64,000 nt of DNA from Meghimatium bilineatum (Eukaryota > Mollusca > Gastropoda > Stylommatophora > Philomycidae). The notes under the pieces were generated by a model. The model searched no databases, was not told where the DNA came from, and saw only the letters and a program-made list of their open reading frames with translations. Below, in pieces: positions 12,230-63,680 of the stretch. The first letter of the stretch is position 1. Each line of letters opens with the position of its first letter. The translations under genes were made by a program, and so were the position numbers. Location: NCBI GenBank assembly GCA_034231615.1, contig CM067311.1, positions 14,435,860 to 14,499,859 on the forward strand. The letters run 5' to 3'.

Positions 12230-13790
12230 ATGTTAGAGATATTTCAGTGTTCCATATTAATAGAAATATTGCAGTGTTCCATATTAGTAGAGATATTTCA
12301 GTGTTCCATATTAGTAGATATATTTCAGTGTTCCATATTAGTAGATATATTGCAGTGTTCCATATTAGTAGATATATTGCAGTGTTCCATATTAGTAGAG
12401 ATATTGCAGTGTTCCATATTAGTAGAGATATTAAAGTGTTCCATATTAGTAGAGATATTAAAGTGTTCCATATTAGTAGATATATTGCAGTGTTCCATAT
12501 TAGTAGATATATTTCAGTGTTCCATATTAGTAGATATATTTCAGTGTTCCATATTAGTAGATATATTTCAGTGTTCCATTTTAGTAGATATATTTCAGTG
12601 TTCCATATTAGTAGATATATTGCAGTGTTCCATATTAGTAGATATATTGCAGTGTTCCATATTAATAGAGATATTGCAGTGTTCCATATTAGTAGATATA
12701 TTGCAGTGTTCCATATTAGTAGATATATTGCAGTGTTCCATATTAGTAGAGATATTGAAGTGTTCCATATTAGTAGAGATATTGCAGTGTTCCATATTAG
12801 TACAGATATTGAAGTGTTCCATATTAGTAGATAAATTTCAGTTTTCCATATTAGTAGATATATTGCAGTGTTCCATATTAGTAGATATATTGCTGTGTTC
12901 CATATTAGATATACTGCAGTGTTCCATATTAGTAGAGATATTGCAGTGTTCCATATTAGTAGAGATATTAAAGTGTTCCATATTAGTAGAGATATTGCAG
13001 TGTTCCATATTAGTAGATATATTGCAGTGTTCCATATTAGTAGAGATATTGAAGTGTTCCATATTAGTAGAGATATTGCAGTGTTCCATATTAGTAAAGA
13101 TATTGAAGTGTTCCATATTAGTAGATATATTTCAGTTTTCCATATTAGTAGATATATTGCAGTGTTCCATATTAGTAGATATATTGCAGTGTTCCATATT
13201 AGATATACTGCAGTGTTCCATATTAGTAGAGATATTGAAGTGTTCCATATTAGTAGAGATATTGCAGTGTTCCATATTAGTAGAGATATTGCAGTGTTCC
13301 ATATTAGTAGAGATATTAAAGTGTTCCATATTAGTAGAGATATTGAAGTGTTCCATATTAGTAGAGATATTGCAGTGTTCCATATTAGTAGATATATTGC
13401 AGTGTTCCATATTAGTAGATATATTGCAGTGTTCCATATTAGTAGAGATATTGAAGTGTTCCATATTAGTAGATATATTGCAGTGTTCCATATTAGAGAT
13501 ATTTCAGTGTTCCATATTAGTAGATATATTGCAGTGTTCCATGTTAGCAGAAGTATTTGCAGTGTTCCATATTAGTAGAGATATTGCAGTATTCCATATT
13601 AGTAGAGATATTACAGTGTTCCATGTTAGTAGAGATATTGCAGTGTTCCATAATAATAGAGATATTGCAATATTCATATTAGAGATACTGCAGTGTTCCA
13701 TATTAGAGATAGTGCATTGTTCCATATTAGTAGTGATGTTGCAGTGTTCCATATTAGTAGAGATATTGCAGTGTACCCATATTAGAGCAT
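12230..13790 (+). repeat. 27-bp minisatellite, about 57 copies, with CArG-like motif
   Basis: The unit is cagtgttccatattagtaga followed by tatattg, with 24-bp variants lacking gta. Each unit holds CCATATTAGT, one base from the CArG box CCATATTAGG bound by serum response factor. All common length variants are multiples of 3, so frames stay open on both strands, the longest 573 codons (12224-13945). These frames are repeats of nine residues with no family match known to me and lie inside an intron. Confidence 0.95.
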
Positions 13791-18525: not shown

Positions 18526-18558
18526 AATGTACAAAAACTTTTAAATGTTTATAATCAG

Positions 18559-18649
18559 GTCATATGAACCACCAAAGAGAGATGAAGAGACAGAGACTCA
18601 ACGTAAAGCCCGTGCTAAACATGCTAGGCAAACTAGAAGATCAACACAG
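18559..18649 (+). CDS. PPP1R12A: MYPT exon 3, first inhibitory phosphorylation site
   Basis: 91 nt between ataatcag and donor gtacat; phase 2 in, phase 0 out. It encodes SYEPPKRDEETETQRKAR then AKHARQTRRSTQ. Vertebrate MYPT1 has a near-identical block (S-Y-x-x-P-x-R-D-E-E-x-E-x-QRKAR...ARQ-RRSTQ) that ends in the Thr696 site phosphorylated by Rho-kinase and ZIP kinase; phosphorylation inhibits the PP1-bound holoenzyme. The Thr is the penultimate codon of this exon (ACA at 18644-18646), and the preceding Ser matches the PKA-type Ser695. This is the strongest identifying segment of the locus. The exon is enclosed by minisatellites on both sides. Confidence 0.95.
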
Positions 18650-18689: not shown

Positions 18690-19300
18690 ACTATATTAGT
18701 CAAGTAGTTTTGTGTTCTAACTTACCATCACAGGAGACTGGTTTTGTGTTCTAACTTACCATCACAGGAGACTGGTTTTGTGTTCTAACTTACCATCACA
18801 GGAGACTGGTTTTGTGTTCTAACTTACCATCACAGGAGACTGGTTTTGTGTTCTAACTTACCATCACAGGAGACTGGTTTTGTGTTCTAACTTACCATCA
18901 CAGGAGACTGGTTTTGTGTTCTAACTTACCATCACAGGAGACTGGTTTTGTGTTCTAACTTACCATCACAGGAGACTGGTTTTGTGTTCTAACTTACCAT
19001 CACAGGAGACTGGTTTTGTGTTCTAACTTACCATCACAGGAGACTGGTTTTGTGTTCTAACTTACCATCACAGGAGACTGGTTTTGTGTTCTAACTTACC
19101 ATCACAGGAGACTGGTTTTGTATTCTAACTTACCATCACAGGAGACTGGTTTTGTGTTCAAACTTACCATCACAGGAGACTGGTTTTGTGTTCTAACTTA
19201 CCATCACAGGAGACTGGTTTTGTGTTCTAACTTACCATCACAGGAGACTGGTTTTGTGTTCTAACTTACCATCACAGGAGACTGGTTTTGCTTTCCAGCT
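18690..19300 (+). repeat. 34-bp minisatellite, about 17 near-identical copies
   Basis: The unit is ttttgtgttctaacttacca followed by tcacaggagactgg. It begins about 45 bp after exon 3. Each copy holds a branch-like TTCTAAC and, 11-12 nt later, ACAG/G, resembling a minimal 3' splice site. The reverse strand of each copy reads GGTAAGTTAG, a donor-like sequence. Copies are very uniform, suggesting recent homogenisation. Confidence 0.93.
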
Positions 19301-20714: not shown

Positions 20715-22092
20715 TAACTAGCGATGTGGAGTAGTAATCAGGTGCTCAGGTAACTAGTGATGTGGGGTAATCAGGTGCTCATGTAACTAGTGATGTGGAG
20801 TAATTGGGTGCTCAGGTAACTAGTGTTGTGGAGTAATCGGATGCTCAGGTAACTAGTGATGTGGAGTAATCGGATGCTCAGGTAACTAGTGATGTGGAGT
20901 AATTGAGTGCTCAGGTAACTGGTGGTGCGGAGTAATCAGGTGCTCAGGTAACTAGTGATGTGGAGTAATCAGGTGCACGTGTAACTAGTGGTGTGGAGTA
21001 ATCACATGCTCAGGTAACTAGTGTTGTGGAGTAATCAGGTGCTCAGGTAACTAGTGATGTGGAGTAATCAGGTGCTCATGTAACTAGTGGTGTGGATTAA
21101 TCACGTGCTCAGGTAACTAGTGATGTGGAGTAATCAGGTGCTCAGGTAACTAGTGATGTGGAGTAATTGGGTGCTCATGTAACTAGTGATGTGGAGTAAT
21201 CAGGTGCTCAGGTAACTAGTGATGTGGAGTAATCAGGTGCTCAGGTAACTAGTGATGTGGAGTAATCAGGTGCTCAGGTAACTAGTGATGTGGAGTAATC
21301 AGGTGCTCAGGTAACTAGTGATGTGGAGTAATTGGGTGCTCATGTAACTAGTGGTGTGGAGTAATTGGGTGCTCATGTAACTAGTGATGTGGAGTAATCA
21401 GGTGCTCAGGTAACTAGTGATGTGGAGTAATCAGGTGCTCAGGTAACTAGTGATGTGAAGTAATCGGGTGCTCATGTAACTAGTGGTGTGGAGTAATTGG
21501 GTGCTCATGTAACTAGTGATGTGGAGTAATCAGGTGCTCAGGTAACTAGTGATGTGGAGTAATCAGGTGCTCAGGTAACTAGTGATGTGGAGTAATCAGG
21601 TGCTCAGGTAACTAGTGATGTGGAGTAATCAGGTGCTCAGGTAACTAGTGATGTGGAGTAATTGGGTGCTCATGTAACTAGTGGTGTGGAGTAATTGGGT
21701 GCTCATGTAACTAGTGATGTGGAGTAATCAGGTGCTCAGGTAACTAGTGATGTGGAGTAATTGGGTGCTCATGTAACTAGTGGTGTGGAGTAATCACGTG
21801 CTCAGGTAACTAGTGATGTGGAGTAATCAGGTGCTCATGTAACTAGTGATGTGGAGTAATCAGGTGCTCAGGTAACTAGTGATGTGGAGTAATCAGGTGC
21901 TCAGATCACTAGTGTTGTGGAGTAATCAGGTGCTCATGTAACTAGTGATGTGGAGTAATCAGGTGCTCAGGTAACTAGTGATGTGGAGTAATCAGGTGCT
22001 CAGATCACTAGTGTTGTGGAGTAATCAGGTGATCCGGTAACTAGTGTTGTGGAGTGATCAGGTAACTAGTGATGTGGAGCAATCGGGTGGTC
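20715..22092 (+). repeat. 33-bp minisatellite, about 40 copies, donor-like motif
   Basis: The unit is gtaactagtgatgtggagta followed by atcaggtgctcag. At each unit junction ctcag/gtaact resembles a U2 5' splice site (CAG/GTAA). Most units contain CAGGTG and a few CACGTG, both E-box type hexamers. Variants (aatcagg/aattggg/aatcacg, ctcagg/ctcatg) are mixed along the array. Confidence 0.93.
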
Positions 22093-27024: not shown

Positions 27025-27268
27025 TTCTTCTGTATTCGTTATCAAACTCTTACAGATTAACAGGTAATAATCTGGAGAACAGAATGTGTTGTGTCATGGT
27101 TTACAGCTTAGCTGCGATATCTGCACTTTTCAGCCTAACATATTTGACTTCAGCATGACAGATGGGTCACTTTTTCCCTCTATTGGATGTGGCAGCCATC
27201 TTCATCCCTCTAACCTCCTTAGTAGCCTCTTGCGACATGCCTAACATGTGACAATGGTGCTATTCAAG
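27025..27268 (+). repeat. Interspersed repeat family A, long copy
   Basis: All landmarks in order: cttcttctgtattcgttatc, cagattaacaggtaataatc, gtgtcatggtttacagctta, acatatttgacttcagcatg, cctccttagtagcctcttgc, ending gcccagcaacac. Confidence 0.8.
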
Positions 27269-28904: not shown

Positions 28905-31275
28905 TAACAGATTGCCATCTTTATAATATGTTCAGATATAGATTGTAATCTTTATGATATGTTCAGATACAGAATGTCATCTTTATATGTTGAGATACAG
29001 ATTGTTATCTTTATATGTTCAGATACAGATTGTCATCTTTCTGATATGTTCAAATACAGATTGTCATCTTTCTGATATGTTCAGATACAGATTGTCATCT
29101 TTCTGATATGTTCAAATACAGATTGTCATCTTTATAATATATTAAGATATAGATTGTAATCTTTATGATATGTTCAGATACAGAATGTCATCTTTATATG
29201 TTGAGATACAGATTGTTATCTTTATATGTTCAGATACAGATTGTAATCTTTATATGTTCAGATACAGATTACCATATTTCTGATATGTTCAGATACAGAT
29301 TGTCATCTTTCTGATATGTTCAAATACAGATTGTCATCTTTATAATATATTAAGATATAGATTGTAATCTTTATGATATGTTCAGATACAGAATGTCATC
29401 TTTATATGTTGAGATACAGATTGTTATCTTTATATGTTCAGATACAGATTGTAATCTTTATATGTTCAGATACAGATTACCATATTTCTGATATGTTCAG
29501 ATACAGATTGTCATCTTTCTGATATGTTCAGATACAGATTGTCATCTTTCTGATATGTTCAGATACAGATTGTCATCTTTATAAAATGTTCAGATACAGA
29601 TTGTTATCTTTATAATATGTTCAGATACAGATTGTCAACTTTCTGATATGTTCAAATACAGATTGTCATCTTTCTGATATGTTCAGATACAGATTGTCAT
29701 CTTTCTGATATGTTCAGATACAGATTGTCATCTTTCTGATATGTTCAAATACAGATTGTCATCTTTCTGATATGTTCAGATACAGATTGTCATCTTTCTG
29801 ATATGTTCAGATACAGATTGTCATCTTTATAAAATGTTCAGATACAGATTGTTATCTTTATAATATGTTCAGATACAGATTGTCAACTTTCTGATATGTT
29901 CAAATACAGATTGTCATCTTTCTGATATGTTCAGATACAGATTGTCATCTTTCTGATATGTTCAAATACAGATTGTCATCTTTATAATATATTAAGATAT
30001 AGATTGTAATCTTTATGATATGTTCAGATACAGAATGTCATCTTTATATGTTGAGATACAGATTGTTATCTTTATATGTTCAGATACAGATTGTAATCTT
30101 TATATGTTCAGATACAGATTACCATATTTCTGATATGTTCAGATACAGATTGTCATCTTTCTGATATGTTCAGATACAGATTGTCATCTTTCTGATATGT
30201 TCAGATACAGATTGTCATCTTTATAAAATGTTCAGATACAGATTGTTATCTTTATAATATGTTCAGATACAGATTGTCAACTTTCTGATATGTTCAAATA
30301 CAGATTGTCATCTTTCTGATATGTTCAGATACAGATTGTCATCTTTCTGATATGTTCAGATACAGATTGTCATCTTTCTGATATGTTCAAATACAGATTG
30401 TCATCTTTCTGATATGTTCAGATACAGATTGTCATCTTTCTGATATGTTCAGATACAGATTGTCATCTTTATAAAATGTTCAGATACAGATTGTTATCTT
30501 TATAATATGTTCAGATACAGATTGTCAACTTTCTGATATGTTCAAATACAGATTGTCATCTTTCTGATATGTTCAGATACAGATTGTCATCTTTCTGATA
30601 TGTTCAAATACAGATTGTCATCTTTATAATATATTAAGATATAGATTGTAATCTTTATGATATGTTCAGATACAGAATGTCATCTTTATATGTTGAGATA
30701 CAGATTGTTATCTTTATATGTTCAGATACAGATTGTAATCTTTATATGTTCAGATACAGATTACCATATTTCTGATATGTTCAGATACAGATTGTCATCT
30801 TTCTGATATGTTCAGATACAGATTGTCATCTTTCTGATATGTTCAGATACAGATTGTCATCTTTATAAAATGTTCAGATACAGATTGTTATCTTTATAAT
30901 ATGTTCAGATACAGATTGTCAACTTTCTGATATGTTCAAATACAGATTGTCATCTTTCTGATATGTTCAGATACAGATTGTCATCTTTCTGATATGTTCA
31001 AATACAGATTGTCATCTTTCTGATATGTTCAGATACAGATTGTCATCTTTCTGATATGTTCAGATACAGATTGTCATCTTTCTGATATGTTCAAATACAG
31101 ATTGTCATCTTTCTGATATGTTCAGATACAGATTGTCATCTTTCTGATATGTTCAAATACAGATTGTCATCTTTCTGATATGTTCAAATACAGATTGTCA
31201 TCTTTCTGATATGTTCAGATACAGATTGTCATCTTTATAATATGTTCAGATACAGATTGCTATCTTAAGATATAT
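28905..31275 (+). repeat. 31-bp minisatellite with 642-bp higher-order repeat
   Basis: The monomer is tctttctgatatgttcagat followed by acagattgtca, with shorter 'tctttatatg' and 'tttataatat' forms. A marked monomer (tttataatatattaagatat) starts at 29131, 29339, 29981 and 30623. The last two gaps are both exactly 642 bp and the first is 208 bp. About 78 monomers in total. Confidence 0.93.
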
Positions 31276-31368
31276 TTAGATAAAAAATTGCCATCTTTAT
31301 ATATTCAGATATTCCAGTAGTACCTGTACCATCATTTAGTGAATAAATGTGTGTCCGTTTCTTATTTT

Positions 31369-31640
31369 GTGTCCATTCTCAAACTTCTTTTGATTATCAT
31401 AATGTAGTCTGGAGAACAGAATACTTTGTATCTTGTCTTACAGATTGACTGCAATAACTGCACTTTTTTAGCCTTATACATCCGGCTTCAGTATAGCTTT
31501 CAGTATATCTCCTTTAACCTAAGGGATGGAACAGCCAACTCCACGCCCACCCACCCCCTAACATTTATTAGTCACCTCTTATGATATTCATGGTAAGTCA
31601 CAGATCGCAATTCTTTTTCCCTCCATTTCAGGCCCATCAA
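31369..31640 (+). repeat. Interspersed repeat family A, long copy
   Basis: Full set of landmarks from ccattctcaaacttcttttg through catccggcttcagtatagct and ccaactccacgcccaccc to ttcaggcccatcaacaca. It ends 115 bp before exon 6. Confidence 0.75.
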
Positions 31641-33489: not shown

Positions 33490-33593
33490 CAAATGGTCAG
33501 GAAAAGAAAGAGGAAAAGAAAGAACCATCATCTATCCGAGCCAGGAGGCAGCGAAGAGAGCGGCGGTCAACTGGTATAGTCATGGACAATGAA
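33490..33593 (+). CDS. PPP1R12A: MYPT exon 7, second inhibitory phosphorylation site
   Basis: 104 nt; acceptor cttgcatag, donor gtaagt; phase 1 in, phase 0 out. The joined frame reads NGQEKKEEKKEPSSIRARRQ then RRERRSTGIVMDNE. Vertebrate MYPT1 has a Lys/Glu-rich stretch followed by SIRERRRPREKRRSTGVSF, ending in the Thr853 site used by Rho-kinase. The Thr here is the ACT in RRSTG. A second conserved block at the expected distance from the first (exon 3) fixes the family. The polypyrimidine tract is poor, and the acceptor is tag rather than cag. Confidence 0.93.
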
Positions 33594-33984: not shown

Positions 33985-34290
33985 GAAATTAGGAAAAGAG
34001 TTGGTATAATATCATGTATTGAACACATTGAAAGACAGCAAGTAAAATGGTTCGGTTACCTTATGAGAATGAACCCATATAACAAAAGAATATCTAGCCA
34101 AAGGTAGACCAAGAAAACTGTGGATAGAAAACATCAAGATAACCTTGAATAAACATGGACTAAATGCAACAACAGCAACACGTCTGGCCTTAGAACAACA
34201 GCTTAAACTCCCACCCCTACGCTTAAAGGCAAGTTTGAACCATCATTCACCTGGGGATAGACAACAGACAATGAAGTTTTGCTTATCACT
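33985..34290 (+). pseudogene. LINE C-terminal fragment (same family as 41239-41520)
   Basis: Contains HIERQQVKWFGYLMRMNPYN and, after frame breaks, TLNKHGLNATTATRLALEQQ, then LKASLNHHSPGDRQQ. The reverse-strand copy at 41239-41520 has the same segments in a longer open frame. Decayed. Confidence 0.75.
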
Positions 34291-34542
34291 TGAAATGCAC
34301 AATTTGATGTTGTGCCCAAAACTAATTAATTACAAGTACAGGACGGCACCACCAATCATATCACAATGCTAAATAGTAACACAAATGCCCTGTCTGTAAC
34401 GGAGTGAGAGATAAATGACACAAAAACTTCATTAGAATGTTTCCAATTTTTACCTGTCAGAAAGAAGCATTTATCATTTTTTTTTACACAGGGGAGGTAT
34501 ATTATGGTGAACATCAAGACAACACGTAAAATGTAAAATCGA

Positions 34543-34875
34543 GGCATGGGGAGAGAGAAATTATTCTGGACAGTCGGATGAAGACATATGTAAGAGGTTT
34601 GGTGTTGGACTGACAGTCAACACTGTTGATAGAGAGTTGAAAATATTTATATTGCCTATGCTAATGAATACAGTGTCTGATGGTGATGATGAGGAAGACT
34701 ACATCAAACCACATGTAAATCAGATATAGTGAAAGGATGTTTGTCATTTGTGTTAACCCTTGTTTAGAAGATTGACATAGTACACTGTATGGTTTATATA
34801 CCACAAACTGGGTAGTCTTCTATTCCATATAGTGGGCAGTTTTTGGTGAGGATATAGCTGTGTTTTTTTCAAGCA
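34543..34875 (+). repeat. Left arm of inverted repeat flanking exon 8
   Basis: Reverse complement of 35970-36290 over about 310-330 bp, mostly matching by eye. Anchors: ggaatagaagactacccagt / actgggtagtcttctattcc, and ccccatg...caaagagaaattattc / gaataatttctctttg...catgggg. Spacer between the arms is about 1.1 kb and contains exon 8. Confidence 0.9.
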
Positions 34876-35278
34876 TGTTTGAAAATGTGACTAATGGGTG
34901 ATTTATTTTTTTTTCTAATTTAACGTCTGGTTTGCTCATAGACAACATTTTAACGAGAGTGTTTGGCAATGGTATCAATTTTTTTAGCATTCATAAATTT
35001 CTACATCATTACAGATGATTAAAATGCAGGCCAGCTGGACAATGAACACCTGAAATACTGAGTACTCTCATAACTGATTTTGATGATTTTCACTTTCCTT
35101 ATTTTGAGTATTATTTTTAATCAATTATAAAAGATCCCAAAAACAATTGCTGAATAGTTGTTTAAAGTTGAATGACAGACTTGTAAGAACTCATTTTGAG
35201 TCCACATCATCATCATCCACATGTACATATTAAACAGCATTATTTATTTGCTTATATTTGTTGTTGTTTTCTTTTCAG

Positions 35279-35329
35279 GATGGAGAAACAAGTAAAGACA
35301 ATAAACCTGAAGAGGATAAAAAAGATGAT
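35279..35329 (+). CDS. PPP1R12A: MYPT exon 8, acidic/lysine exon (copy 1)
   Basis: 51 nt, phase 0 at both ends; acceptor gttttcttttcag, donor gtaagt. Encodes DGETSKDNKPEEDKKDD. It is clearly related to exon 9 (DVITRKDNKPDEDKKDY) and of identical length, so the pair is an exon duplication. It follows the second phospho-site, where vertebrate MYPT1 has an acidic stretch (SFWTQDSDENEQEQQ-like). It sits in the loop of a ~300-bp inverted repeat. Exons 8 and 9 could be used together, alternatively or singly without changing frame; the sequence alone cannot say which. Confidence 0.82.
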
Positions 35330-35969
35330 GTAAGTTTTACCCATGTTTTTCAAGATTCATAAACCTTTAAGACTAAATGGCCAATGTATGTTTGTCAGAG
35401 CCCTAAAGGAAGCATGGTACGGTGTCATTGACTTGCCATGCATGTCATATGAAGCACCATAGGATGTTTTGGGGGCGGGGATTAGGTGTTCCATCTCAAT
35501 TTGGTCAAAGTGGTTAAACCATACCTAACTCACTGACTATCATGCCAAAAAGTACTGTAGTTTCGTAGATATCACCGATTTCTAGAGTGTACTAAGAACG
35601 TTGTAACTTCACACCTATATAGTTTTTCGTATTTGTGCTCAAAAATGAAGGGAGCACTTGTAGTAAAAGCAGAAAGGGGGATGGAATCTGTTGCCAAAAT
35701 GGAGAGAATCAAGCCAGAGGCTGCAGTCAGGACATGCACAGTGTTTTGTATCACACTGGCTAGTGTTAGATAGTCGTGCCCTACGGCATGTCTGGAATGA
35801 AAGCAGCGGCCTTATTCTTTGCGCCCTGAATTGTATGTTCATACAATGGTTGCTACACAACAATTTGATCTACTAAACCCTCTTGTTAAAATGTTCTCTA
35901 TGAGCTAACCTGACTTTAAATTAGAAAAAAAAATATCACCCTTTAGTTACATTTTGCTACATACTAGAA
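35330..35969 (+). other. Intron 8, 5' part inside the inverted-repeat loop
   Basis: No recognised gene. A segment at 35735-35770 (cacagtgttttgtatcacac tggctagtgtt) is repeated at about 36378-36413 (tagtgttttatatcacactg gctaatgtt), a second local duplication. Confidence 0.4.
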
Positions 35970-36290
35970 AGAACACTGCTATATTGTCACCAAAAACTGT
36001 CCCCTATATGGAATAGAAGACTACCCAGTTTGTGGTATATAAACCATACAGTGTGCTATGTCAATCTTCTAAACAAGGTTAACACAAATGACAAACATCC
36101 TTTCACTATATCTGATTTATATGGGGTTTGGTGTCGTCTTCCTCATCATCACCATCAGACACCATATCCGTTATCATAAATATTTTCAGCTCTCTATTGA
36201 CAGTGTTGACTGTCAATCTGCCACTAAATCTCTTACATACATTTTCATCAGACTATCCTGAATAATTTCTCTTTGTCTCCCCATGTCTCT
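35970..36290 (-). repeat. Right arm of inverted repeat flanking exon 8
   Basis: Inverted copy of 34543-34875. Includes the near-palindrome ggtatataaaccatac. Extends at least from the cagtgttc side (35972) to ccccatgtc (36287). Confidence 0.9.
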
Positions 36291-36424
36291 TTAGGTACAT
36301 TTTTACATAAAAGTTGCTCAGTTAGCAAGCAGGCCAGTGTAAAAGTTTTGTGGAACAATGAAGCCCTCAAAGCATACATAGTGTTTTATATCACACTGGC
36401 TAATGTTCAAAACATACACAGTCC

Positions 36425-38010: not shown

Positions 38011-38265
38011 ACCTGAAAGGTGAACAAATAATAGCAGCACTGTCATGCACATCATAAGAGGAGACTAAGGAGGTTTGGGTTTACAGTTGGCTGTTCCATC
38101 CCATAAAGTGTCAAAAGGGCCCAGACACCAAACTGAAGATGTATGTCAGACCAAAAAGTGCAGATATCACAGTTTAGCTGTAAACCATGACACAGAGAAT
38201 TCTTTTTTCCAAACTACATGTTGCTAATCCGCAGGAGTTTGAGAATGAACGCAGAAGGAAGATAA
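38011..38265 (-). repeat. Interspersed repeat family A, long copy
   Basis: Reverse orientation, complete: aggtgaacaaataatagcag, ggaggtttgggtttacagtt ggctg, gctgtaaaccatgacacaga, gctaatccgcaggagtttga, gaacgcagaaggaag. It ends about 75 bp before exon 9. Confidence 0.85.
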
Positions 38266-38341: not shown

Positions 38342-38392
38342 GATGTTATAACAAGGAAAGATAATAAACCAGATGAGGATAAAAAAGATTAT
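38342..38392 (+). CDS. PPP1R12A: MYPT exon 9, acidic/lysine exon (copy 2)
   Basis: 51 nt, phase 0 at both ends; acceptor atattcctcag, donor gtaagt. Encodes DVITRKDNKPDEDKKDY. By eye it matches exon 8 at 11 of 17 residues and at most bases, including the gatgtaagt / tatgtaagt donor region, while the flanking introns look unrelated beyond the splice sites. The peptide is intact and both splice signals are good, so it is likely functional. This is the last exon of the gene I can find; the next must lie beyond or within the long following intron. Confidence 0.78.
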
Positions 38393-40850: not shown

Positions 40851-41238
40851 TCTAAGGGTTTTGTGGGGTTGTTTTTTAACCTTTCTGCAACATTCAGAGT
40901 TGAAGTCATGGGCTTCAGCTCCCCTATAAAGCATCCTTTCCTGTCAGATGTCAGTTCACTAGTATGGGTGAAACAGCCAGCTATGCATTCCCTGCCATTC
41001 AAGAGGGCTAACACATTTGCCTAATTTTTGGGCTCTTCCTAATAGTTGTCACGTCATGCACAGAGTTGCTTTTCACTATACCACATGTGCCACCTGTTCA
41101 TTCCAGGCATATCATGCAAACATTGGCAGGTAGGACCATGTTCGGAATTGGAGCTCATTTCTTCTTCTTCTTCTTCAGCGTACATTCTGACAATGCTGAT
41201 TTCTCTGAATGTTGCACCATAAAGGGAAATGTAATTGT

Positions 41239-41520
41239 CTATTGTCTGTCACCAGGTGAATGATGGTTCACACTTGCTGTTAAGCGTAGGGATGGGAGCT
41301 TAAGCTGTCGTTCCAAAGCCAGATGTGTCATCGTGGTTGCATTTAGTCCATGTTTGTTCAAGGTTATCTTGATGTTTTCTATCCACCGTTTTCTTGGTCT
41401 ACCTTTCGCTTTACGCCCGGATATTCTTTTGTTATATGCTCTTACTGGTATTTGGTTTGGGTTCATTCTCATAAGGTGACAGAACCATTTTACTTGCTGT
41501 CTTTCAATGTTCAATACATG
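41239..41520 (-). pseudogene. LINE C-terminal fragment
   Basis: The reverse-strand frame encodes MNIERQQVKWFCHLMRMNPN, then GRKAKGRPRKRWIENIKITL and LNATTMTHLALERQLKLPSL. It is the cleaner relative of 33985-34290 and a typical GRPRKRW non-LTR tail. A cttcttcttcttcagcg stretch similar to a family A' 5' end lies just upstream on the + strand (41160). Confidence 0.8.
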
Positions 41521-42340
41521 ATATTATACCAACTCTTTTCCTGTAATGTAAGTGTAATTATACAGATGAAATTATGTAGGGCCTGCACATGAGGAAAGCC
41601 TCACTGTATTGGTATGTCATCTACTGAGAGTTTACTGTTGTATAATGCTCGGTCTGAAAGGTGGTCAATAGTGAGACAATCAGACCTTCACATGCGGGTC
41701 TTATTTTACAGCCTCTAAAATTTTATACATTCCTAACAGTAAAACATTGTTTCTCCACATTCGTTAGAGAAGATTGAAAGGTGGCTGTCCGGGCAAAACA
41801 AAACTGTTTTAAAACTTATACAAGACAACAGTGAGGATTCTGCAGTTGTGCGGTGCGCTCTAAATATAGAGCACGCACTTCGTGAATGTTACAAAACAGA
41901 TAAGAGAAAATAAGATCTACTAAGATGGTACAAATTCTGAAACTGGGAGTCCCCTTGGGTAACCTGAAAATAATTACATCCTTATTAGTACTGTAAAGTG
42001 ATAACTGACTGAAGAATGGTGAAGTAATGAATCACACAGTTCATTGAAATTATTAGTGCTGCGATGCGGTTGGAGATGCGGTTAGTCAAGTACGGAAGAA
42101 CGCGTGTGCAATAGTTGCTAGGCGATTTGGTGCCGTTGAACAGACTGGTTCAATTCCCGTTAGTCTCAAGAATTTTGGAAGCGTATCTAACGACCTGTAA
42201 CCGTCACAAGAATAATCCTGCTCTCTCAGATCCCAAACAGCGTCATTTGTTTCGACTGATGCGACAGTCTTTTTTTTGTGTGTGTTAGTTTCCTATTGAA
42301 TGGTGATACATAGTATACACGCAGTGACCAAGATGAGTGT
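41521..42340 (+). other. Intron 9, no recognised feature
   Basis: Unique sequence. A weakly palindromic stretch near 42255-42335 resembles the foldback family but is too diverged to call. Confidence 0.3.
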
Positions 42341-45006: not shown

Positions 45007-45290
45007 TCTTCTTCTTGTGCGTTCGTTCTCAAACTCCTGCAGATTAGCAGGATGTAGTCCGGATAACCGAATGCGTTGTGTCCTGGTTTACAGCATTGCT
45101 GCGATAGCTCCGCCTTTCGGCCTGACACATCCGACTTCCGCATGGCTTTGGGTCACTGGCCCTATATGGGATGGGTCAGCCAACTCCATCCCATAACCTC
45201 CTTAGTCGCCTTTTACGACGTGGAAGGTAAACAGTGTTGCTATTCTTTGCTCCCCTTTCAGGCCCTGGCAACACACGGGTGGCATGATGG
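45007..45290 (+). repeat. Interspersed repeat family A, best long copy
   Basis: About 284 bp, from cttcttcttgtgcgttcgtt to caggccctggcaacacac. Landmarks: tgcagattagcaggatgtag, gtgtcctggtttacagcatt, gacacatccgacttccgcat, tatatgggatgggtcagcca, cctccttagtcgccttttac. No Pol III boxes or terminal inverted repeats seen and no coding capacity. Class unknown; short related copies show 13-bp target duplications. Confidence 0.85.
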
Positions 45291-61345: not shown

Positions 61346-61999
61346 TCAGAGAACGTGTCATGTCTTCTACTGCCGATCGGTCGCGGGTGATTTTACCATT
61401 AAGCATTTTCGATTGGTCATATATGTGACCGCCTCGATATAACCACTATGGACACCAGTCCTAGGTTGAAAGAGGCGGGCCTCGACCATATGAGGCATAA
61501 ACCCCTACTAAACAAAGATTGGTCATATAATTAAAGTTGTATGTCTGTGATTATCAGGTATACAAAATAGTTTAGAACATAACTTAAATGATGTGTGGTG
61601 TGTAGTCATACGTGCTGTATGTTTTCCATTGTTCATCGACATCTTATCGTTGTCAGGTTCGATCGCAGTTTGATCCGTGAGTGTTTGCGAAATCGGACAG
61701 TAGAAAACATCTACCAGTGTTGTGTTCATTCAATAGTGTTCAATCTGAAATATCGATGTGTGGTTGCAACGTATCAACAAGAACTGTTATCATATATTAT
61801 TTGTATAGGTGTAAGTGTTGAATGACCAAGCATACTTCGATCAGACAAACACATTTCAAAAACGTGAAACTTAATTCATTCTGGATTGGTTATATTCTTG
61901 GTGTTTAGGTTAGCACGGATTTAACAGAAAACGGGAAGACTCGAGTTCACACATCTACTCTGACAATTGAACAACGTTGAGTATTGTTAGCAGTTCATC
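61346..61999 (+). promoter_or_regulatory. Putative 5' flank / 5' UTR of the Ser-Gly-Tyr exon
   Basis: No repeats after 61345. An in-frame TAG 12 nt before the ATG (tgttagcagttcatcATG) supports 62000 as the first start in this frame, with A at -3. An acceptor-like ggtgtttag at about 61907 could mark a non-coding first exon further upstream. No clear core promoter is identified. The role is inferred from position only. Confidence 0.35.
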
Positions 62000-62927
62000 A
62001 TGTCTTATGGTTCGCATCGTTACGGAGCAGGAAGTGGAAACTTGGGATCTACAGGGAGTAGCGGGATTGGGGGTTCTTATGGAAGCTACAACCCCACAAG
62101 TGGAAGCTATGGCTCTTCTAGCGGCGTAGGAGGGGCGGCTTCTAATATTTACGGTGGTGGAAATGGGTATGGTGCGGGAAGCGGGTTGGGGAATTACCCC
62201 AGTAGCAGTATGTATTCGGGTGGATCATACAGTAATCCATACACCAGCAGCTCATACGGAAGTGGTGGTAGTGGAAACTACGGAAGTGGGGGAGGTGCAT
62301 CCAAAAGTGGATCGTTTCACGGACATTCACCCAGTCCATACAGCTCTACTAGTGGCTATAGTCCGTCTCCAGGATCTGGACTAGGCAGCTCGGGTTCTAA
62401 GGGTTCCAGCGCAGGTGTTTTTTCATACACACCTTCAGCACTAGGATCTGTTGGAGGGTCGTCATATAGTTCTAGTATAGGCCCCCACATCCCCCTCCCC
62501 TTATGTTCCAGGATCTAAAATGACATCATCATCCAGCCCGTCTCCATATATCCCAGGTAGTAGTCGCCTTGGATCTGGGTACGGCTCCTCCACATTAGGA
62601 TCATCTGGAGGATCATTGTATGGAAGTTCGAGTTCAGCTTTGCCTCCGTCGTCATCACTAGGACCAGGTATTTCTACGTCGTCGTCTGTGAGTTCAGGTG
62701 GTGGATCCCTGGGACCTACTTCGCCACTTCCACTTACTGGTGGTTCAGGCCCTACTACTTCAACCTCAAATTTAAGCGGAACTAGTTTCGGATCTATGTC
62801 CACTCTACCTGGGTCCGGTTTGACATCAAGCTCAGGCTTGGGTTCCGGTTACAGCTCACGGGCAGGATCAACTGCTTCCTTGCCAGGCTCCTCTGCCTTT
62901 GCTTCAGGACTAAGCACATCACTAGCG
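62000..62927 (+). CDS. Ser/Gly/Tyr-rich low-complexity first coding exon (one frameshift)
   Basis: Starts MSYGSHRYGAGSGNLGSTGS and continues with repeated YGS/GSY, SSSYGSGGSGNYGSGGG and SPSPYSSTSGYSPSP motifs, like the prion-like domains of FUS-type proteins. The frame from 62000 runs to a stop at 62518. The next frame continues the same composition (SPSPYIPGSSRLGSGYG...) to 62927. Dropping one C from the run at 62482-62486 joins them in register, giving about 309 codons. It ends GLSTSLA at a phase-0 donor, GCG/gtcagt; read through, it stops at 62937. Family not recognised. Either an alternative first exon for the MYPT C-terminus or the first exon of another gene. Confidence 0.6.
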
Positions 62928-63680
62928 GTCAGTATTTAACTGTAAGCAGTGAATTATATATTACCTTGTTCATTACCTATCCTATATATACATTTCATTA
63001 TTCTATATGTACATTGATACTCTCATTTTAATGTCTTTTTCGCATCTGTCATCATTTGTGATTATGTGTCCATGATATTGATAATGTTCTACTTCTTGTA
63101 GTTTCTCTCCATGTATATTTATGTTTAGAACTTCTTCTGTGACTACTGATTATCATGGTTTTTGTTTTTTTAGATGTTTAGATCCAGTCCATATTCTTTA
63201 CTTAATTTATGGACTTGATCTATTAGTCTCTATAGTTCATGTTCACTTTCTGCTAAAATAACAGTGTCATCTGTATATCTCATGTTGTTTATTATTTTCC
63301 CATTGATCTTGAGTCATGGAGTTCCTTCTATATATCCTTCTATAGTCTCTGTGTAAATATTAAATAGGCTGGTTGATAAAATACATTCTTGTCTTACCCC
63401 TCTTCTTATTTCTATGTATAGTGAGTAGCTGTTTTCACACCTCATTGATACATTCTGTTCCCAATATATATTTCTAATTAGTTTGATATCTTTTCCATCT
63501 GTGCCCATTTCTTGAAGACATTTGATTAATTTTCCATGTTGGACTCTTGTCAAAAGCCTTGCTGTATTCTTTGAGACTATGTAGTCTTCTGATGAAATCC
63601 TCACAAAAAGACCAACATTATTGTCTCTAAAGACAAACAGAATGTCAATGATGTGCACCCATTCATAGATCATTGTCTTG
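62928..63680 (-). pseudogene. LINE reverse transcriptase core, reverse strand
   Basis: The frame 63673-63314 reads ...LLTRVQHGKLIKCLQEMGTD, GKDIKLIRNIYWEQNVSMRC and IEIRRGVRQECILSTSLFNI: RT blocks between the fingers and the catalytic YXDD. Further along the reverse strand (about 63290-63180) comes YTDDTVILAESEHEL and LSKEYGLDL, the catalytic block. The GVRQECIL form (usually GVRQGCVLSP) and the stops around 63250-63000 show decay. Lies just after the 62000 exon, presumably in its intron. Confidence 0.8.

Follow-up and report, generated by a model that had tools for sequence, protein, structure and literature searches.

An exon-flanking inverted repeat around one of two tandem duplicated exons in a putative MYPT1/PPP1R12A homologue of the gastropod Meghimatium bilineatum

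Main finding

A putative myosin phosphatase subunit gene of M. bilineatum carries an inverted repeat of about 430 bp whose arms lie on the two sides of exon 8, one of a pair of tandemly duplicated 51-nt exons. It is an instance of an already known kind, the exon-flanking inverted repeat. The reading that we prefer, and to which about half of our confidence goes on the strength of predicted folding and of analogy, is that the repeat acts as in TBXT: some transcripts would skip exon 8 in frame and the duplex would probably undergo A-to-I editing, with no dedicated switch involved. All coordinates refer to the window, i.e. the whole 64-kb stretch of DNA that was analysed, and continue beyond its two ends where needed.

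The inverted repeat and its predicted fold

The original prediction placed reverse-complementary arms of about 300 bp at 34543-34875 and 35970-36290. These arms are real, and by alignment each of them is slightly more than 100 bases longer. The left arm occupies 34528-34965 (+ strand) in the intron before exon 8 and the right arm 35875-36303 (- strand) in the intron after it. As reverse complements they are identical in 377 of 445 alignment columns, the rest being 45 mismatches and 23 gap columns (89% identity across the 422 ungapped columns). The arms thus match well rather than poorly: their local score is 554, and none of 50 single-base shuffles of the left sequence scored above 31. Exon 8 does lie in the loop between them, as predicted, together with weak fragments of dispersed repeats detected by genome search; the loop itself (34966-35874, unstranded) measures 909 bases and not the expected 1.1 kb.

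Divergence varies along the arms. Up to 116 consecutive columns of the 422 contain no more than one mismatch (p = 0.0003; 20,000 permutations with gap columns taken out), and allowing 0, 2 or 3 mismatches gives p = 0.019, 0.001 and 0.001. From the alignment, this clustering is suggestive of local constraint or of a tract of gene conversion. Transitions account for 26 of the 45 mismatches, and a G-U pair is kept in 18 of them and lost in 8 (two-sided p = 0.076). The lean is not significant, and since strand-biased mutation in transcribed DNA gives the same lean it is no evidence of selection. The left-arm segment 34637-34673 is perhaps a small dispersed fragment, with short matches in two other loci, two of them in L017 (81-83% over 36-37 columns) and one in L027 (95% over 21 columns).

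RNA folding of 34450-36350 gave -820.6 kcal/mol compared with a mean of -456 (sd 7.7) for 10 dinucleotide shuffles, and a long arm-to-arm duplex is predicted. In this fold the bases of the left arm pair with the right arm with a mean predicted probability of 0.88. Taken by themselves, the arms are predicted to form a duplex of -582.5 kcal/mol. An exon flanked on both sides by arms that pair in the predicted fold is the TBXT-type geometry. In the prediction, neither exon 8 nor its splice sites become more or less accessible when the arms are included, so any effect would come through looping and not through masking. A hairpin across the exon 8 acceptor (35269-35316), in which the acceptor and its polypyrimidine tract would form 11 pairs with exon 8, does not stand out from shuffled sequence (z = -0.85; 34 of 200 shuffles equally good); the equivalent stretch at exon 9 gives z = -1.80, with 6 of 200 shuffles as good.

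Gene identity and the duplicated exons

The host gene is best identified by its sequence as a MYPT1/PPP1R12A homologue, because ankyrin exons, two RRST exons and a C-terminal leucine-zipper region follow one another in order on one strand. Segments of human MYPT1 served as tblastn queries. On the + strand they located the ankyrin exons at about -39 to -33.6 kb, then an RRSTQ exon (18557-18649) and farther on the end of the leucine zipper (97660-97740). A coiled-coil match at 85481 (+ strand) was weak (E = 0.039), as were the remaining matches of this tblastn search. The RRST motif is found at 18635 and at 33561. The exon with RRSTGIVMDNE, which ends at 33593, was recognised by splice scores and motif reading and is absent from the tblastn list; we take this motif to resemble the Thr853 ROCK site of MYPT1. 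A genome-wide search with PF15898 returned two matches, both above the cut-off, at C14:14533513 (window position 97654) and on contig 22. Together with the ordered exons, the Pfam match bears out the predicted myosin phosphatase subunit. The contig 22 match is a second C-terminal MYPT-type exon (27033710-27033796) and probably belongs to a paralogous gene, judging by its sequence. The haemocyanin genes agree with a mollusc and lean towards a gastropod: the genome has 39 matches to PF14830, and two fragments, taken from two of four loci examined, match 14 PDB haemocyanin sequences each. Among the scores listed, the highest for a single domain is 69.1 bits to 3j32_A for the first fragment and 65.9 bits to 1lnl_A for the second. 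Both fragments score higher against the gastropod proteins 3j32_A (69.1 and 59.8) and 1lnl_A (65.0 and 65.9) than against the cephalopod proteins 1js8_A (53.0 and 48.9) and 4yd9_C (54.5 and 51.2).

Several long minisatellites are present in the window, at 28907-31266 (31 bp x 77), 12234-13785 (27 bp x 58), 20715-22063 (33 bp x 41) and 18707-19290 (34 bp x 17, 99% matches). Long Ser/Gly-rich open frames at 61991-62939 have no Pfam match at E <= 0.1 and are, from their sequence, a possible further exon of the MYPT1 homologue or of a neighbour. No structured RNA gene was found in the window (0 Rfam matches at the gathering score, 0 tRNAs).

The exons around the repeat were delimited with a splice-score scan that used approximate base frequencies. 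The 3' part of exon 7 (33545-33593, + strand) encodes RRSTGIVMDNE and ends in phase 0. Exon 8 (35279-35329, + strand; 51 nt, phase 0 at both ends, DGETSKDNKPEEDKKDD) scores 12.4 at the acceptor and 7.6 at the donor, and exon 9 (38342-38392, + strand; 51 nt, phase 0, DVITRKDNKPDEDKKDY) scores 7.3 and 6.2. The scores are higher for exon 8, which favours its inclusion. Both exons are free of stops and identical at 42 of 51 bases, in agreement with the prediction that exon 9 duplicates exon 8. With exon 7 ending in phase 0 and exons 8 and 9 both in phase 0, any combination of exons 8 and 9 stays in frame.

The two exons differ by dN 0.154 and dS 0.52 over 17 codons, and the introns flanking them show no likeness above background (scores of 22 and 19; 300-base segments paired at random within the region have a median of 19 and a 95th percentile of 26, n = 298). 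Because the exons have diverged to this degree and the surrounding introns share no likeness beyond chance, the exon duplication appears to be old; both copies seem to have been retained as coding sequence. Among the matches listed by a literature search, no description of a mollusc MYPT1 exon pair was present, which does not prove its absence in print.

Origin and age of the arms

When positions 34543-34964 of the left arm were searched against the 1.6-Gb genome, two places matched, namely the two arms, with the caveat that the search bypasses very common words and scores the best candidates only, such that a high-copy family could escape it. The loop, used as query in the same kind of search, gave at least 40 matches at E <= 1e-5, itself and exon 9 included, the best 40 of 78 first-look candidates having been scored. 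The search is therefore able to detect dispersed repeats. BLAST of both arms against the 183-kb gene region and the other sampled loci revealed no further full copy, and the partial matches there extend over at most 46 columns for the left arm and 54 for the right. Within the 64-kb window there are likewise no further arm copies beyond short weak matches.

A transposable element with terminal inverted repeats was considered as a source of the arms and rejected on the grounds that no other copy was found, genome-wide for the left arm and in the 183-kb region and sampled loci for both. A coding relic was also rejected: the left arm contains a 72-codon frame with one Pfam match, which reaches 13.9 bits against a cut-off of 26.3, and in the alignment the right arm carries a stop in the matching frame. 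An assembly artefact such as a fold-back read is a known generator of inverted copies in general, but it would leave them near-identical, and with the mismatches and gap columns counted above we consider its chance practically negligible. The sequence data suggest a local inverted duplication as the best-fitting origin.

The inner repeat is probably younger than the exon pair, since the Jukes-Cantor distance between its arms is 0.115 and the dS between exons 8 and 9, estimated from 17 codons, is 0.52. The dating would not hold if the arms have been homogenised by gene conversion, a process with which the clustered mismatches are compatible.

Other inverted pairs around the gene

The inner repeat is nested among other inverted pairs. 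An outer repeat with its left arm at 33991-34272 (+ strand) and its right arm at 41234-41542 (- strand) encloses exons 8 and 9 together with the inner repeat; its arms are 6,962 bases apart and 82.6% identical over 311 columns, with a duplex energy of -417.7 kcal/mol. The open frames in this pair resemble LINE 3' ends. Just upstream of exon 9 lies a repeat at 38012-38262 (+ strand) with inverted partners at 45010-45262, 31365-31592 and 27027-27231. Its pair with 45010-45262 (- strand) encloses exon 9 (73.9%, -275.3 kcal/mol, 6,748 apart). The pairs of 31365-31592 or 27027-27231 with 38044-38257 (69 and 71%) enclose upstream exons and exon 8, and the duplexes of these two partners with 38012-38262 have energies of -182.9 and -196.3 kcal/mol. 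The prediction that a duplex surrounds exon 8 and not exon 9 consequently holds for the inner repeat but not for the locus, where other pairs enclose exon 9. In terms of modelled pairing, the nested outer pairs may leave room for competition between loops.

The frequency of comparable pairs was estimated in a background sample of 283 kb, consisting of the 183-kb gene region and ten 10-kb stretches taken elsewhere at round coordinates. Pairs were counted if the arms aligned over at least 250 columns with at least 80% identity and lay at most 2 kb apart; palindromes, in which the arms overlap, were excluded. Three pairs qualify: the inner repeat, one near -31 kb inside the gene, and one near 120 kb, past the last exon found. 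All three are in the 183 kb and none in the 10 stretches elsewhere (100 kb). Comparable inverted pairs are thus not rare around this gene, and a high genome-wide rate is not implied by the sample. Loops of qualifying pairs make up 0.53% of the sampled sequence, or 0.21% without the inner repeat, in a sample of limited size drawn mostly from the surroundings of that repeat. Very roughly, the chance of one exon falling in such a loop in a 26-exon gene is 5-14%, 26 being an earlier count for human PPP1R12A given in PMC9367544.

Discussion

In the TBXT-like reading that we prefer, an intron segment of about 430 bp would have been duplicated as an inverted copy across exon 8, probably at a time when exons 8 and 9 were both present. 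In the pre-mRNA of living cells the arms would probably pair into a long duplex with exon 8 in a 0.9-kb loop, and this would bring the splice site of exon 7 nearer to that of exon 9 or of a later exon. Some transcripts would then omit exon 8 and lose 17 residues just past the Thr853-type site, with the frame kept. The inner duplex would probably also serve as a substrate for A-to-I editing; ADAR editing is expected on general grounds by analogy with other long intronic duplexes, for which a review describes it as expected (PMC11263572).

Exon skipping, one of the consequences originally proposed, is plausible by the TBXT precedent, since the inner arms are longer and closer together than the TBXT Alu pair. 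In TBXT, an inverted pair that flanks the exon, with 1,448 bp between its members, leads to in-frame skipping in human cells (PMC10901737). An Alu pair inserted in Tbxt (228/297 stem) also yields skipping in mouse ES cells, as does an unrelated 297-bp inverted sequence (PMC10901737). Mouse embryos with the inserted Alu pair produced the skipped isoform at low levels only (PMC10901737), hence the imperfect stem described here may, by analogy, have a small effect on splicing.

The same low level in embryos speaks for a neutral repeat, in which case the introns would be removed despite pairing, exon 8 would be included and the duplex would at most be edited. The strong splice scores of exon 8 fit with this, and two more inverted pairs of similar size are present in or near the gene and so are seemingly tolerated. 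The great length, small spacing and good match of the arms fall, however, in the range for which skipping was shown in TBXT (PMC10901737), and we give neutrality a substantial but minority share of the probability. A selected switch, in which pairing picks either exon 8 or exon 9 in a mutually exclusive manner, would account for the tandem 51-nt duplicates being open, in phase and diverged as described, for the lean of transitions toward G-U pairs, and for the alternative loops that nested pairs provide. Against it, the lean is not significant and is also expected from strand-biased mutation, the repeat seems younger than the exon pair, and exons 8 and 9 together are in frame, so that exclusivity is not forced. 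A switch also needs an alternative state, and no competing third copy of the inner arm occurs in the window or the 183-kb region beyond short weak matches. The docking-selector model, in which one site can pair with several selectors, therefore does not fit the inner arms within the window and that region. With several inverted pairs around the same exons besides, the structural switch for exon choice put forward originally is not borne out, and we regard a selected switch as unlikely.

An elaborate version, in which the nested repeats around exon 8, exon 9 and both would set whether none, one or both of the twin 17-residue segments stand next to the Thr853-type site under ROCK control, and in which A-to-I editing of the duplexes would tune the outcome by tissue, is less likely still and should be seen as speculative. 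Circular RNA of exon 8, another proposed consequence, would have the standard geometry of reverse-complementary flanking introns (PMC11263572). Exon 8 alone has only 51 nt, while single-exon circles come from unusually long exons with medians of 169-253 nt (PMC6376117), and in fission yeast the length of an exon is a strong predictor of its circularisation (PMC4479058). The inner repeat driving such a circle is thus very improbable.

If exon 8 is indeed skipped through the duplex, the locus would be an invertebrate counterpart of TBXT, next to a regulatory phosphorylation site of a contractility gene, with arms that seemingly arose by local inverted duplication and not from two transposon copies. 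If there is no skipping, the locus would be a clean negative case on how much intronic duplex splicing tolerates.

Comparison with known systems

The docking-selector or bidirectional pairing of Dscam and srp shares tandem duplicated exons and long-range intron pairing with the present locus (PMC6071210), but here no competing arm copies were found in the window or the 183-kb region, and the introns beside the twin exons resemble each other no more than chance stretches do. Intronic inverted Alu pairs are similar in their long intronic duplex with expected effects on editing and splicing (PMC11263572), whereas the inner arms here match no repeat family found. Vertebrate MYPT1/PPP1R12A has the cassettes E13, E14, E22 and E24, which likewise are optional segments in the same family, several of them in frame (PMC9367544); the pair described here differs in being a tandem duplicate that directly follows the Thr853-type exon. 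The closest tested precedent for the inner repeat, by analogy, is the skipping of TBXT exon 6 through AluSx1-AluY in apes. In both cases a single exon, the loss of which keeps the frame, is enclosed by inverted sequences in the introns on its two sides, with a spacing of about 1 to 1.5 kb and with arms of about 300 bp in TBXT and about 430 bp here (PMC10901737). The TBXT arms belong to a high-copy family while no other copy of the present arms was found, and skipping is demonstrated in TBXT and predicted in M. bilineatum, where the enclosed exon has a tandem duplicate (PMC10901737).
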